A DNA stretch of 64,000 nt from Sulfitobacter sp. HNIBRBA3233 (GTDB lineage: Bacteria > Pseudomonadota > Alphaproteobacteria > Rhodobacterales > Rhodobacteraceae), in contig NZ_JBEFLP010000001.1 of the NCBI RefSeq assembly GCF_040149665.1, positions 1 to 64,000 of the forward strand, in the 5' to 3' direction. Numbering within the stretch: the stretch's first letter is position 1; each line of letters starts with the position of its first letter. The translations under genes were made by a program, and so were the position numbers. Under the pieces are notes generated by a model. That model was not told where the DNA came from, searched no databases, and saw only the letters and a program-made list of their open reading frames with translations. This document shows positions 6,118 through 18,849 of this stretch, piece by piece.

Positions 6118-7068
6118 TTACGTGCCCCAAATCACCGAATTCTCGTGACGCAGGATGATGGCGCGCAAATCGTCAAAGGCCACGCCTATGAAACGTTGAA
6201 GTTTCTCCGACGCTGGCAAGACAGGCGCATCTTTCAGCCGCAGAAAACCCAGCGACCGGTCCGGCTGCGGGATCTTGATTGGTATCGTCCTGAACAGCCG
6301 CGACTGGCGGAAGGCGAACAGCACGCTTTGCGGCAGGACCGTCAACGCATCTGTTTCTTCCAGATAGTTCAGCACACTCATCAGGGATCCGCCCGTGTAG
6401 CGGACGTTGATCTTGCTCATGCCGATGGCCAGAAGAATTGAATGCAGGTCGGACAGCAGCGGCGAGCCGGGTAATGGTCCGATCCACGGATAGCGCAGCA
6501 GATCATTTGTCGTGACCGCCTTTTTCCCGAACAGGGGGTGCCTTGCGCGGGCGGCAACGACGTTTCTGCCCGGCAGGATCTGGGTAAATTGCAGCTCTGA
6601 CCCGGCGTCGACCACGCCGAGCGGACAGACCGCCAGATCCAGTTGCCCCGATCGCAACCCCGCTTGGATTTCCGGGAGGTTCCCGTAGGACTGGTCAACG
6701 CGGATGTCCGGTTCCTGTTGTTGGAACTGGCCGATCATACGTGAAATAATCGCATCCATGAAGAAAGGGACACCGCCAAGGCGCACCGTGCCGGCAGAAC
6801 CGGCCTGAAACCCGACGACGGCTTCTGATGCCTTGCGCCCTGCCTCCAGGATCACCTTGCCGCTCGCGGCCAGTTGCTGGCCGATGATTGTCGGCACAAG
6901 CGGCCTGCGCCCCGGCAGAAACAGCGGCTCACCGAGCCGCTTTTCAAGCGTCGATAATGTGCGCGAAACGGCTGGCTGGCTGAGGCCCAGCATCTTCGCC
7001 CCTTCCGTGACGCCGCCTGCCTCGACCACGGCGGCGAGTTGGGCCAGATGTCTTTCATCGATCTTCAT
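6118..7068 (-). CDS. LysR-family transcriptional regulator of the aromatic cluster
   Basis: This 316-residue protein is of normal LysR length. Residues 1-60 form the winged helix-turn-helix (LAAVVEAGGVTEGAKMLG, then SQPAVSRTLSTLEKRLG). Residues about 90-300 form the periplasmic-binding-protein-like effector domain. It is transcribed divergently from the ring-cleavage operon across a 217-bp gap holding an 18-bp inverted repeat close to its own start. This is the classical arrangement for a LysR activator of an aromatic catabolic operon. The inducer is presumably a pathway intermediate such as hydroxyquinol or maleylacetate, which is inference. Confidence 0.92.
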   Translation of the reverse strand: MKIDERHLAQLAAVVEAGGVTEGAKMLGLSQPAVSRTLSTLEKRLGEPLFLPGRRPLVPTIIGQQLAASGKVILEAGRKASEAVVGFQAGSAGTVRLGGVPFFMDAIISRMIGQFQQQEPDIRVDQSYGNLPEIQAGLRSGQLDLAVCPLGVVDAGSELQFTQILPGRNVVAARARHPLFGKKAVTTNDLLRYPWIGPLPGSPLLSDLHSILLAIGMSKINVRYTGGSLMSVLNYLEETDALTVLPQSVLFAFRQSRLFRTIPIKIPQPDRSLGFLRLKDAPVLPASEKLQRFIGVAFDDLRAIILRHENSVIWGT

Positions 7069-7089
7069 AACAATATGTTATACCAGACT

Positions 7090-7107
7090 ATAGTATTTCG
7101 ATACTAT
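7090..7107. promoter_or_regulatory. Perfect inverted repeat, probable LysR operator
   Basis: ATAGTAT, then TTCG, then ATACTAT form a perfect 7-bp dyad 22 bp upstream of the LysR start and about 180 bp before the dioxygenase start. The gap is AT-rich compared with its surroundings. LysR proteins bind such dyads in divergent promoters and usually repress themselves there. The assignment rests on position and symmetry. Confidence 0.5.
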
Positions 7108-7285
7108 CATATGATTGCGGTGCGCATAATTTTATCAGGAGGAGATTCGTTTGTTCATTATGTGAGCAAACGAGCGGTTGCGGTACGCACAAGGCGCTAC
7201 CGTCATTCGTGTTCAAACCTCCCTTACAGAACTGACCGATCACAGACGGTCCCAAATAAAAACTGACGCTCTTGGAGGAGAGATC

Positions 7286-8242
7286 ATGGCACAGATCAGT
7301 GGTTATCATCACCTAACGCTTAGCACACACGGCGTGCAGGAAGATTTCGACTTCTACACCAAGATGCTCGGGCTTTATTCAGTCAAGCGCACAGTGCTTT
7401 TCGACGGCGTGCTACCTGTCTATCACTTGTACTACGGGGCCAAGAACGGCGACGCATCGACGATCATCACGACCTTTCCGTTCAAAAAGCCCGGTATTTA
7501 TGGCCGCCGTGGCTCGAACCAGTCAAAAATCGTCATGCAGGCCATTCCTGTCGGCGCGAGCGATTTTTGGGTGAATCGCCTGAATGAAATGGGCGTTACT
7601 GCCACCAAAACAACGCGCTTTGGCGCTGACCGCGTGGTCTTCGAACATCCCTGCGGCATTCCGCATGAACTGGTCGAAAACCCAAACGACAACCGCACAC
7701 CGATCGCCAATGAAGCACAGGGCGTGAGCGCCGAACATGGCATCAAGGGGATTTACGGGGGTGCGGTGTCCGTCATGGACCGGTCGGCCATGGACGATTT
7801 CCTGACGATTGCGCTGCCCATGGAAAAGATCGCCGACAACCATGAAGGTCTGGCTTTTGCAGTGCCCACGAATGACGGTGCCAAGTCCATCGTCGAGGTG
7901 TTGCATGAACCCGAAGTGCCCCAGGGCACATGGACGCTGTCGGGGGGCACGATTCACCACCTCGCGCTGAACACCGGTGACGAAGAAAACCAGATGGCGC
8001 TGCGCGCGCATATCGAAGGATTGGGGTTCACGGATATTTCCGAACAGAAAGACCGGATGTACTTCAAGTCCTGCTATGTGCGCAGCCCCGGCGGTGCCTT
8101 GTTTGAACTGGCATGGACCGTACCCGAAGGTTGGGCCAAGGACGAACCGGCCGATGCAATTGGGCAGACGCTGGTGTTCCCGCCCTGGTTCGAAGATCGC
8201 CGCGCCGAGATGGAAGCTGGTCTCGAACCAGCCGAATTCTGA
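7286..8242 (+). CDS. VOC-family ring-cleaving dioxygenase (hydroquinone 1,2-dioxygenase type, LinE/PcpA/MhqO-like)
   Basis: This 318-residue protein has two vicinal-oxygen-chelate halves. The first opens with YHHLTLSTHGVQEDFDFYTKM and a VKRTVLFDG segment; the second opens with GGTIHHLALN and ends with the ligand Glu in LFELAWT. Fe(II) ligands are expected at a His of each half (residue 8 or 9; IHH) and this Glu. The length and the conserved GTIIT-like strand match the PcpA/LinE/MhqO group, which open para-diols (hydroquinones) to semialdehyde or maleylacetate-type products. The ATG at 7286 follows TTGGAGGAG; earlier in-frame starts lack this. It is first gene of the cluster. Hydroxyquinol itself is an alternative substrate. 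Confidence 0.85.
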   Translation: MAQISGYHHLTLSTHGVQEDFDFYTKMLGLYSVKRTVLFDGVLPVYHLYYGAKNGDASTIITTFPFKKPGIYGRRGSNQSKIVMQAIPVGASDFWVNRLNEMGVTATKTTRFGADRVVFEHPCGIPHELVENPNDNRTPIANEAQGVSAEHGIKGIYGGAVSVMDRSAMDDFLTIALPMEKIADNHEGLAFAVPTNDGAKSIVEVLHEPEVPQGTWTLSGGTIHHLALNTGDEENQMALRAHIEGLGFTDISEQKDRMYFKSCYVRSPGGALFELAWTVPEGWAKDEPADAIGQTLVFPPWFEDRRAEMEAGLEPAEF

Positions 8243-8250
8243 GCCCGATT

Positions 8251-17997: not shown

Positions 17998-18110
17998 CCA
18001 CGCCTGCACCGGACTAAAGGACAATGTGCAACTCGACAAACATGCTCTCGCACCATGCAGCGCCGCCGTTGTAGGGCGGTGCGTGTCCTCGTGCGAGCCA
18101 TACCAACGGC

Positions 18111-18131
18111 CCGTTGCAGATGCTGCAACGG
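18111..18131. repeat. Perfect 9-bp inverted repeat upstream of wrbA
   Basis: CCGTTGCAG, ATG, CTGCAACGG form a perfect dyad with a 3-nt loop in the 210-bp gap between the hydroxyquinol dioxygenase and wrbA. No T run follows. It could end the catabolic transcript with Rho, act as an operator for wrbA, or stabilise a processed mRNA end. Sequence alone does not decide. Confidence 0.5.
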
Positions 18132-18207
18132 CTCGACAACTTCCCGGGCTGTGAGCCTGGATCAAAGAACGCGTTCGCTTTCCCAAAACCTCTGAAAGGA
18201 TATGAAA

Positions 18208-18807
18208 ATGACCAAAGTACTCGTGCTCTATTATTCGTCTTACGGCCACATCGAAGCCATGTCTGAAGCGGTTGCCAAAGGTGCAGCCGAGGTGGATGGC
18301 GTGGATGTGGTGATCAAGCGCGTGCCCGAAATCATGACAGACGAGCAGACCTCCGCTGCCGGGTTCAAGACGGATCAGGCAGCTGAAGTCGCCACAGTCG
18401 ATGAATTGCCCGACTACGATGCAATTATTGTCGGAACACCAACGCGCTTCGGCAACATGGTCTCGCAGATGCGAAGCTTTTGGGACCAGACAGGAGGGCT
18501 CTGGGCAGGGGGCAAGCTGATTGGCAAAGTGGGTTCGGTCTTCACTTCGACAGGCACCGGCGGCGGCTCTGAAACCACGATCACATCGTCATGGAACAAT
18601 CTGGTCCATCACGGCATGGTGATTGTCGGTCTGCCTTACTCCTCGTCGGAACTCATGGATATCTCTGAAGTGCGCGCCGGATCGCCCTATGGGGCCGCAA
18701 CGATCGCGGGGCCCGACGGATCGCGGATGCCCAGCGAGAAAGAGCTGAAACTGGCGGCAGATCAGGGTCGGCATGTCGCGACAATCGCGACGAAACTTGC
18801 GAGCTAA
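18208..18807 (+). CDS. wrbA: NAD(P)H:quinone oxidoreductase WrbA
   Basis: This 199-residue flavodoxin-fold protein matches the length of E. coli WrbA. The N-terminus MTKVLVLYYSSYGHIEAM holds the FMN phosphate loop. Further typical blocks are DAIIVGTPTRFGNMVSQMRSF and FTSTGTGGGSETTI. The start is the ATG at 18208: the AAAGGA site is 7 nt before it but only 1 nt before the alternative ATG at 18202. WrbA reduces quinones by two electrons and so protects against redox cycling. Next to (hydro)quinone-forming genes, it probably keeps intermediates reduced. A strong hairpin follows. Confidence 0.92.
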   Translation: MTKVLVLYYSSYGHIEAMSEAVAKGAAEVDGVDVVIKRVPEIMTDEQTSAAGFKTDQAAEVATVDELPDYDAIIVGTPTRFGNMVSQMRSFWDQTGGLWAGGKLIGKVGSVFTSTGTGGGSETTITSSWNNLVHHGMVIVGLPYSSSELMDISEVRAGSPYGAATIAGPDGSRMPSEKELKLAADQGRHVATIATKLAS

Positions 18808-18820
18808 ATTTTGCGAATGG

Positions 18821-18849
18821 GCCATCCCGGCGTGAGGCGCCGGGATGGC
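18821..18849 (+). terminator. Hairpin terminator after wrbA
   Basis: A perfect 12-bp GC-rich stem (GCCATCCCGGCG against CGCCGGGATGGC) with a TGAGG loop lies 14 bp after the wrbA stop. Only TT follows, so termination may be imperfect or Rho-assisted. It marks the right border of the catabolic cluster. Confidence 0.6.

Follow-up and report, generated by a model that had tools for sequence, protein, structure and literature searches.

A Sulfitobacter gene cluster predicted to bring two kinds of ring-cleavage substrate to one maleylacetate reductase

When a hydroquinone ring is opened between C1 and a C2 without a substituent, the product is a semialdehyde, which needs a dehydrogenase; with a hetero-atom at C2, the ring-opening product is an acyl derivative. 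For LinE this product is reportedly an acyl chloride. For the PcpA-family enzyme MnpC of Cupriavidus, C1-C2 cleavage of aminohydroquinone to an amide has been proposed, and its cluster encodes a predicted amidase, MnpE, and a reductase, MnpF, according to the excerpted account of that work (PMC5604080). Here we describe a cluster with a PcpA-type dioxygenase in Sulfitobacter sp. HNIBRBA3233, within a stretch of 64,000 nucleotides (NCBI RefSeq assembly GCF_040149665.1, contig NZ_JBEFLP010000001.1, positions 1 to 64,000) that we call the window. The cluster appears to be composite, and we predict, with a probability of roughly 60%, that through it ring-cleavage substrates of two kinds reach maleylacetate and 3-oxoadipate. 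Gene content lends good support to the predicted convergence on one maleylacetate reductase (MAR), to which an importer is linked.

Eleven tightly spaced plus-strand genes run from 7286 to 17997, with a LysR-type regulator gene placed divergently on the minus strand (Table 1). They encode a PcpA-type dioxygenase, a serine hydrolase, MAR, five importer components, a SnoaL-like protein, a TfdB-type monooxygenase and a hydroxyquinol-type intradiol dioxygenase (HQD). The gaps between them are, in order, 8, -4, 31, 63, -4, -4, 5, 35, 62 and -4 bases, so a single transcript is plausible; a WrbA gene follows 204 bases farther on.

A scan of GTDB contigs for the PcpA-type dioxygenase gave 95 relatives, the best 80 of which were retained and form the base of most counts below; the window genome's own loci (L001-L003) were excluded from these 80-locus counts. 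By title the 80 are Alphaproteobacteria, mainly Rhodobacterales and Hyphomicrobiales (one is titled just Proteobacteria), and their PcpA-type proteins share 67.5 to 94.7% identity with that of the window. tblastn matches were discarded if they covered less than half of the query, or less than 40% in some module comparisons (plasmid records and importer-only regions). Ligand and triad counts take intact-frame proteins only (n = 79, 60, 55 and 78), and the order-level sample comprised 292 genomes of Rhodobacterales, the order of the window.

The PcpA-type protein probably starts at 7286, where ggagag precedes the ATG, and not at the open reading frame start at 7178. The original prediction, made from the letters of the window, had described an extradiol enzyme of LinE/MhqO type; such an enzyme is present, and it is closer to PcpA (4huz, 236.6 bits, E 3.7e-69) than to MhqO (3oaj, 151.7 bits). 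Its H9, H225 and E274 align with H11, H227 and E276 of 4huz, which we take to be the metal ligands of PcpA, and are kept in 77, 79 and 79 of 79 relatives, the two H9 exceptions being alignment gaps. H8, T11, H224, R257 and Y264 are likewise kept in 77 to 79 of the 79, and here too the two missing are alignment gaps. We predict that the protein is a PcpA/LinE-type hydroquinone 1,2-dioxygenase that cleaves para-diols.

The hydrolase encoded next to it retains a catalytic triad (Ser102 in 78/78 relatives, Asp155 in 78/78, His187 in 77/78), and its closest solved relative is the phospholipase/carboxylesterase 4h0c at 73.2 bits. It had been proposed as an MhqD-like partner of quinone stress, an assignment that failed when the protein was scored against the curated NCBIfam equivalog for MhqD (26.2 bits, with a cut-off of 325). 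pcpA and the hydrolase gene are adjacent in 78 of 80 loci; the contig of one other locus stops 263 bases past pcpA (L026), and the last has a 176-base gap (L079). The MAR gene lies immediately 3' of the hydrolase gene in 57/80. The hydrolase gene is a near-constant neighbour of the extradiol gene, and its product more likely serves catabolism than the response to quinone stress.

On the intradiol side, the iron ligands first read from the HQD sequence (Tyr163, Tyr198, His222 and His224) proved exact and are invariant in 60 of 60 relatives. The best match is 8r2x, an entry named 6-chlorohydroxyquinol dioxygenase (336.5 bits). The five best entries score 336.5 to 236.9 bits and four of them are named PnpC or hydroxyquinol or chlorohydroxyquinol dioxygenases; the best catechol 1,2-dioxygenase reaches 137.7. 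The enzyme is accordingly named here as hydroxyquinol-type, with predicted action on hydroxyquinol; the only further PF00775 genes found in the genome are a pair at C1:2271047-2272227. The single MAR and the TfdB-like hydroxylase of the original prediction are both there. For MAR, two entries named maleylacetate reductase score 425.4 and 423.9 bits, followed by two with general alcohol dehydrogenase names (371.9 and 242.6) and a next match at 126.1. The monooxygenase has FAD_binding_3 and Rng_hyd_C architecture and about 55% identity to plasmid proteins annotated tfdB.

Both dioxygenases on which the two-route idea was built are present, but counting two of them understates the relatives. A second intradiol gene, absent from the window cluster, is found in 56/80 loci, mostly at 38-48% identity to HQD and in 55 just upstream of pcpA; the protein of one such locus (L031) likewise matches hydroxyquinol-type dioxygenases best. 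Both intradiol genes stand beside pcpA in 42/80 loci, making three ring-cleavage genes common, while 18 loci have HQD alone, 14 the second gene alone and 6 neither within the stretch; in all, 74/80 have one or more intradiol genes alongside pcpA. Of the six loci with neither, three are short (L007, L017 and L023), and the stretches of L014 and L015 stop right after the monooxygenase gene, next to which HQD is found in their genomes. The sixth, L052 (Palleronia abyssalis), has HQD in short fragments (L052:19282-19486), with full matches for MAR and monooxygenase and a 43% relative of HQD elsewhere in the genome. Separately, 7 of 55 second intradiol dioxygenases have Gln in place of the second His iron ligand in the motif RPAHxH (L004:9144-9980, L006, L011, L018, L020, L021 and L068), which suggests a relaxed or altered function.

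The LIV-type importer, correctly placed between the two halves at the outset, is complete: one row of five genes encodes a binding protein, two ATPases and two permeases. The binding-protein model has a pLDDT of 81.6 and its best structural matches are LIV-type binding proteins. Of 75 relatives of this protein, 74 have two arginines (RR) among the 12 N-terminal residues, and the binding-protein gene is present in 76/80 loci. The SnoaL-like protein has an export-like start, and at the same position an importer-only relative encodes a protein (L190:6096-6683) with a signal-like start and, by eye, a VOC-like sequence; together these make a periplasmic step before uptake possible.

Taking as core the genes for LysR, pcpA, the hydrolase, MAR, the five importer proteins, the monooxygenase and HQD (11 in all, SnoaL excluded), we found all of them in 57 of the 80 loci with a PcpA relative. 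This is a lower bound because some of the 23/80 loci without a core gene terminate near the cluster, and the conservation of the gene set is far beyond chance. The survey for the exact gene set that had been suggested thus recovers the core, but neither SnoaL (9/80) nor WrbA (1/80). The WrbA assignment itself is sound (319.6 bits against a cut-off of 141), but the gene is outside the conserved set: a match of at least 40% identity occurs in one locus (L078, elsewhere in the locus), and a 31% match lies inside the L021 cluster. Past the locus ends WrbA was sought in 11 longer stretches only, and none of them had a match.

Across the 292 genomes, the pcpA clade (at least 68% identity) is found in 11, the other listed matches being 31-39% identical. 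The binding protein (at least 63% identity) is found in 38, including all 11 pcpA genomes and 27 without pcpA, a co-occurrence with a hypergeometric probability of 4.4e-11 when genomes are treated as independent and relatedness is uncorrected. Importer-only regions were fetched for 18 of the 27 and hold the monooxygenase in 18, MAR and HQD in 17 each, LysR in 16, the 3-oxoadipate:acetyl-CoA acetyltransferase BKACE in 13 and pcpA in 0; LysR, MAR, importer, monooxygenase and HQD are all kept in 16/18. The importer module also occurs without pcpA on pRL12 (R. johnstonii 3841), pR132503 (R. leguminosarum group), pPAN2 (Paracoccus pantotrophus) and pAvCG78a (Agrobacterium vitis). In Shinella and Rhizobium sp. 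NZLR1, a LysR-pcpA-hydrolase set lies beside the importer module, not inside it, and Agrobacterium LN-1 has an intradiol-pcpA-hydrolase-MAR set with no matching importer in the stretch. A plasmid survey gave ten pcpA-clade records at 72-76% identity, the next listed being at 44%. Since the importer module occurs elsewhere without pcpA, and the pair elsewhere beside the module, the window cluster is two nested modules: a pcpA-hydrolase pair within an importer-hydroxylase-HQD-MAR row. The earlier claim of two routes to one MAR therefore stands on gene content but not as a single unit, the importer-hydroxylase-HQD-MAR part being common without an extradiol gene. Extended islands at L084, L094 and L129-L130 contain a second LIV importer, an alcohol dehydrogenase or short-chain dehydrogenase/reductase (SDR), an alpha/beta hydrolase, an HsaA-like monooxygenase and a flavin reductase.

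The neighbours of these clusters bear on the fate of the product. A BKACE gene lies 3' of HQD in 13/80 loci, several being truncated where the locus stops; 45 of the 47 loci that have HQD but no BKACE extend at least 300 bases past HQD. Against NF053568, the 3-oxoadipate:acetyl-CoA acetyltransferase model (cut-off 350), the BKACE of L010 reaches 495.8 bits. In the window a relic aligns with positions 218-272 of that model (42.1 bits) and is 49% identical to the end of the intact L010 protein, and the same genome has an intact BKACE at G000:C2:67260-68075 (491.4 bits), where no other cluster genes adjoin it. A 3-oxoadipyl-CoA thiolase-type gene (694 bits) is present in this genome as well, in a row of genes resembling those for phenylacetate degradation. 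On Paracoccus pPAN2, pcaF and CoA-transferase genes adjoin the importer module, and in Pseudarthrobacter chlorophenolicus A6 thiolase and CoA-transferase genes follow a pcpA-hydrolase-MAR set. BKACE after HQD, together with these thiolase and CoA-transferase neighbours, supports 3-oxoadipate as the probable end product. As a side observation, L014 and L015 have a BKACE-type gene 28-29% identical to that of L010, and L014 further encodes a 3-hydroxyacyl-CoA dehydrogenase; a 124-residue piece of its BKACE-type gene is closest to a 3,5-dioxohexanoate enzyme.

From these parts we propose the following scheme. In one route an aromatic compound would enter through the importer and be hydroxylated by the monooxygenase to hydroxyquinol or something close to it, whose ring HQD would then open to maleylacetate. 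In the other, the PcpA-type enzyme would cleave a hydroquinone between a hydroxyl carbon and the neighbouring hetero-substituted carbon to give an acyl derivative of maleylacetate, from which the partner hydrolase would remove the hetero-group as its alcohol. MAR would convert the maleylacetate of both routes to 3-oxoadipate, and the BKACE intact elsewhere in the genome would split this with acetyl-CoA into acetoacetate and succinyl-CoA.

The second route turns on the substituent. With two query proteins, none of the 80 loci gave an aldehyde dehydrogenase match within 1.5 kb of the cluster (0/80), and matches lay farther off in 4; this and the linked hydrolase point to a hydroquinone bearing a hetero-substituent as the likely substrate of the PcpA-type enzyme. 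By the logic that gives LinE an acyl chloride and MnpC an amide, an ester would be expected from an alkoxy group, and the protein usually encoded alongside in these loci belongs to an esterase family. Methoxy would be the most natural choice, giving a methyl ester, and a methoxyhydroquinone-type substrate is thus our guess by analogy. Taken further, the pair might remove methoxy groups from methoxyhydroquinone-type lignin fragments with no demethylase: ring opening would turn the aryl methyl ether into the methyl ester of maleylacetate, and the esterase would then act on it, freeing methanol and not formaldehyde. The pair would on this account be a portable cassette that enters resident hydroxyquinol operons and widens their diet. 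We offer this extension tentatively and consider it rather unlikely.

Several observations weigh against the scheme. The hydrolase is only weakly like solved esterases (73 bits), and no methoxylated-aromatics gene was recognised in the window cluster. The two-query search is a weak test, having overlooked an aldehyde dehydrogenase gene that is annotated 2.5 kb past LysR in L085. In L133, a longer stretch not among the 80, such a gene lies 1.1 kb 3' of HQD with another gene in between; an aldehyde dehydrogenase encoded elsewhere in the genome could also serve. Among the six viewed of ten pcpA-clade plasmid records, two Rhizobium plasmids (L087 and L093) carry pcpA and no such hydrolase, which is thus not an obligate partner. 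Their pcpA-clade gene (74%) has no hydrolase of this kind, MAR, importer, monooxygenase or HQD nearby, in stretches of 37 and 26 kb, although the annotation places alpha/beta hydrolase genes of an unrelated kind some 1 kb from it. The genome count behind the co-occurrence takes genomes as independent. Finally, there is the hydroquinone dioxygenase of strain TTNP3, which is said to be of a different, two-subunit type. It apparently opens methylhydroquinone beside a ring hydrogen, and it uses methoxyhydroquinone at 59% of the hydroquinone rate, as given in the excerpted account (PMC3222310).

Three other explanations were considered. A single branched pathway of resorcinol or phloroglucinol type, in which the monooxygenase would make a tri- or tetrahydroxybenzene and the dioxygenases would cleave the same product or variously substituted forms of it, seems to us rather unlikely. 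The intradiol gene or genes found with pcpA in 74/80 loci are what one pathway would need, and MAR is closest to the solved MARs 3w5s, presumably the resorcinol-pathway protein GraC, and 3hl0. Such phenolics are, as general knowledge has it, met by marine and rhizosphere hosts alike. Yet opening a hydroxy-substituted hydroquinone would give a free acid and leave the hydrolase needless, and another MAR cluster on pRL12 looks more like the known gamma-resorcylate route. That cluster of R. leguminosarum 3841, a different one by gene number, has a dioxygenase, an amidohydrolase and a flavin reductase (PMC4136779).

We consider it improbable that the cluster serves chlorinated or brominated phenols, such as marine bromophenols, by way of a halomaleylacetate that MAR would dehalogenate. 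No dehalogenase was recognised in the cluster, the 80 loci are titled rhizobia, Loktanella and similar, and the linked hydrolase gene would be left unexplained, an acyl halide being expected from general chemistry to hydrolyse without an enzyme. These points stand against solved relatives that include PcpA (2,6-dichlorohydroquinone), an entry named 6-chlorohydroxyquinol 1,2-dioxygenase and TfdB-type enzymes, and against the A6 plasmid, on which MAR and two HQD-type genes accompany a monooxygenase (55% identical), while a PcpA relative, a hydrolase and a MAR are encoded apart from them.

A quinone-detoxification unit that protects the cell and feeds no carbon, as the Bacillus Mhq proteins reportedly do, is very unlikely: the MhqO match (151.7 bits), the weak MhqD match, the downstream WrbA, three Variovorax/Cupriavidus plasmid loci in which a gene with 38-39% identity to WrbA lies about 1 kb from that of a PcpA relative, the 31% match in L021 and the two Rhizobium plasmids with pcpA but no MAR or importer nearby speak for it, but the hydrolase misses the MhqD cut-off of 325 with 26.2 bits, WrbA is unmatched at 40% identity or more in 79/80 loci, MAR comes right after the hydrolase in 57/80 and the binding protein is present in 76/80.

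The composite catabolic cluster that we favour sits beside a conserved tRNA gene. The pcpA clade is found in 1 of 14 same-genus genomes listed, while tRNA-Gly and the ABC exporter next to it are kept in 7/7 congeners fetched, and in the 15-16 kb upstream of tRNA-Gly in these seven no cluster gene was matched; the cluster therefore sits on the variable side of tRNA-Gly. Its left border falls outside the assembly contig. In one congener, part of the tRNA-Gly 3' end (47 bases, 93.6%) is repeated near the tRNA at L170:16101-16147, the kind of duplicate that an integrated element may leave behind, and another (G106) has a pcpA-free importer module at a different place. Farther left in the window, at 4059-5513, a lower-GC stretch encodes a protein with a type VI secretion system (T6SS) Tle1-like phospholipase domain (162.8 bits). 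Between LysR and pcpA, the inverted repeat listed in Table 1 is a candidate LysR-type operator that most relatives do not show; the promoter-like match at 7067-7094 is to a consensus only.

Table 1. Coordinates in the window of the cluster genes and adjoining features, with supporting matches.
Feature	Coordinates	Strand	Evidence
LysR-type regulator	6118..7068	-	PF03466 98.6 bits, PF00126 54.1 bits; lysR match in 78/80 loci
Divergent intergenic region	7069..7285	.	Inverted repeat ATAGTAT-TTCG-ATACTAT at 7090-7107
Predicted PcpA/LinE-type hydroquinone 1,2-dioxygenase (VOC protein)	7286..8242	+	4huz 236.6 bits; H9, H225, E274
Carboxylesterase/phospholipase-family serine hydrolase	8251..8898	+	PF02230 44.6 bits; 4h0c 73.2 bits
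Maleylacetate reductase (MAR)	8895..9962	+	3w5s 425.4 bits, 3hl0 423.9 bits
LIV-type periplasmic substrate-binding protein, twin-arginine-like start	9994..11274	+	PF13458
Importer ATPase, LivG-like	11338..12057	+	PF00005 108.8 bits
Importer ATPase, LivF-like	12054..12761	+	PF00005 95.5 bits
Importer permease, LivH-like	12758..13621	+	PF02653 97.6 bits
Importer permease, LivM-like	13627..14679	+	PF02653 119.6 bits
SnoaL-like protein, exported-protein-like start, optional	14715..15269	+	PF12680 36 bits; 9/80 loci
TfdB/HbpA-type FAD aromatic hydroxylase	15332..17116	+	HbpA 4cy6 617.4 bits, 6u0p 472.8 bits
Predicted hydroxyquinol-type intradiol 1,2-dioxygenase (HQD)	17113..17997	+	8r2x 336.5, 3n9t PnpC 275.4, 1tmx 250.7 bits
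BKACE (3-oxoadipate:acetyl-CoA acetyltransferase) gene relic, about the last 51 codons recognisable	17999..18151	+	NF053568 42.1 bits
WrbA NAD(P)H:quinone oxidoreductase, neighbour outside the conserved set	18202..18807	+	NF002999 319.6 bits, cut-off 141
tRNA-Gly (TCC), shared edge of the cluster's chromosomal site	19211..19284	+	ARAGORN

The importer-hydroxylase-HQD-MAR module, of which no description was found in the literature searched, is widespread. Its binding protein occurs in 38/292 genomes of the order, and the module is also carried by plasmids of the R. leguminosarum group (two viewed, with many more binding-protein matches). Assigning its substrate would place a widespread catabolic function of marine and rhizosphere bacteria. 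If the ester idea is true, the PcpA-hydrolase pair would be an O-demethylase-free route for methoxylated para-diols, useful in lignin conversion.

Set against described systems, the cluster shares something with each. Like Bacillus MhqD/MhqE/MhqO it has a VOC dioxygenase beside an alpha/beta hydrolase (the order reported for Bacillus), but its hydrolase is far under the MhqD cut-off and MAR and an importer are linked. With the rhizobial gra (gamma-resorcylate/resorcinol) clusters it has in common HQD and a MAR closest to 3w5s. Those clusters reportedly use a two-component resorcinol hydroxylase and a decarboxylase, neither of which was found among the scanned products of 6118-18807, whereas the window has a one-component TfdB-type enzyme and an importer. 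The Cupriavidus mnp cluster, in the excerpted account, likewise combines a PcpA-family enzyme, a hydrolase and MAR (PMC5604080), but there an amidase replaces the esterase-family protein and a nitroreductase lies beside; in the viewed stretch of an mnp-similar locus, no LIV-type importer, TfdB-type enzyme or HQD is annotated. Plasmid pACHL02 of Pseudarthrobacter chlorophenolicus A6 resembles the window in having monooxygenase (55%)-MAR-HQD on one plasmid, with a separate row of monooxygenase-PcpA relative (44%)-hydrolase-YceI-MAR-thiolase-CoA transferase. Unlike the window, it keeps these as two clusters with a MAR each, and no LIV-type importer is annotated in either stretch. With PcpA and LinE of the pentachlorophenol and lindane pathways the window dioxygenase shares its family, aligned ligand and second-sphere residues (with the roles presumed for them) and a MAR in the pathway. 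It differs from them in that no dehalogenase was recognised and in that its gene, of a distinct clade, adjoins a carboxylesterase-family hydrolase inside an importer-hydroxylase-HQD module.

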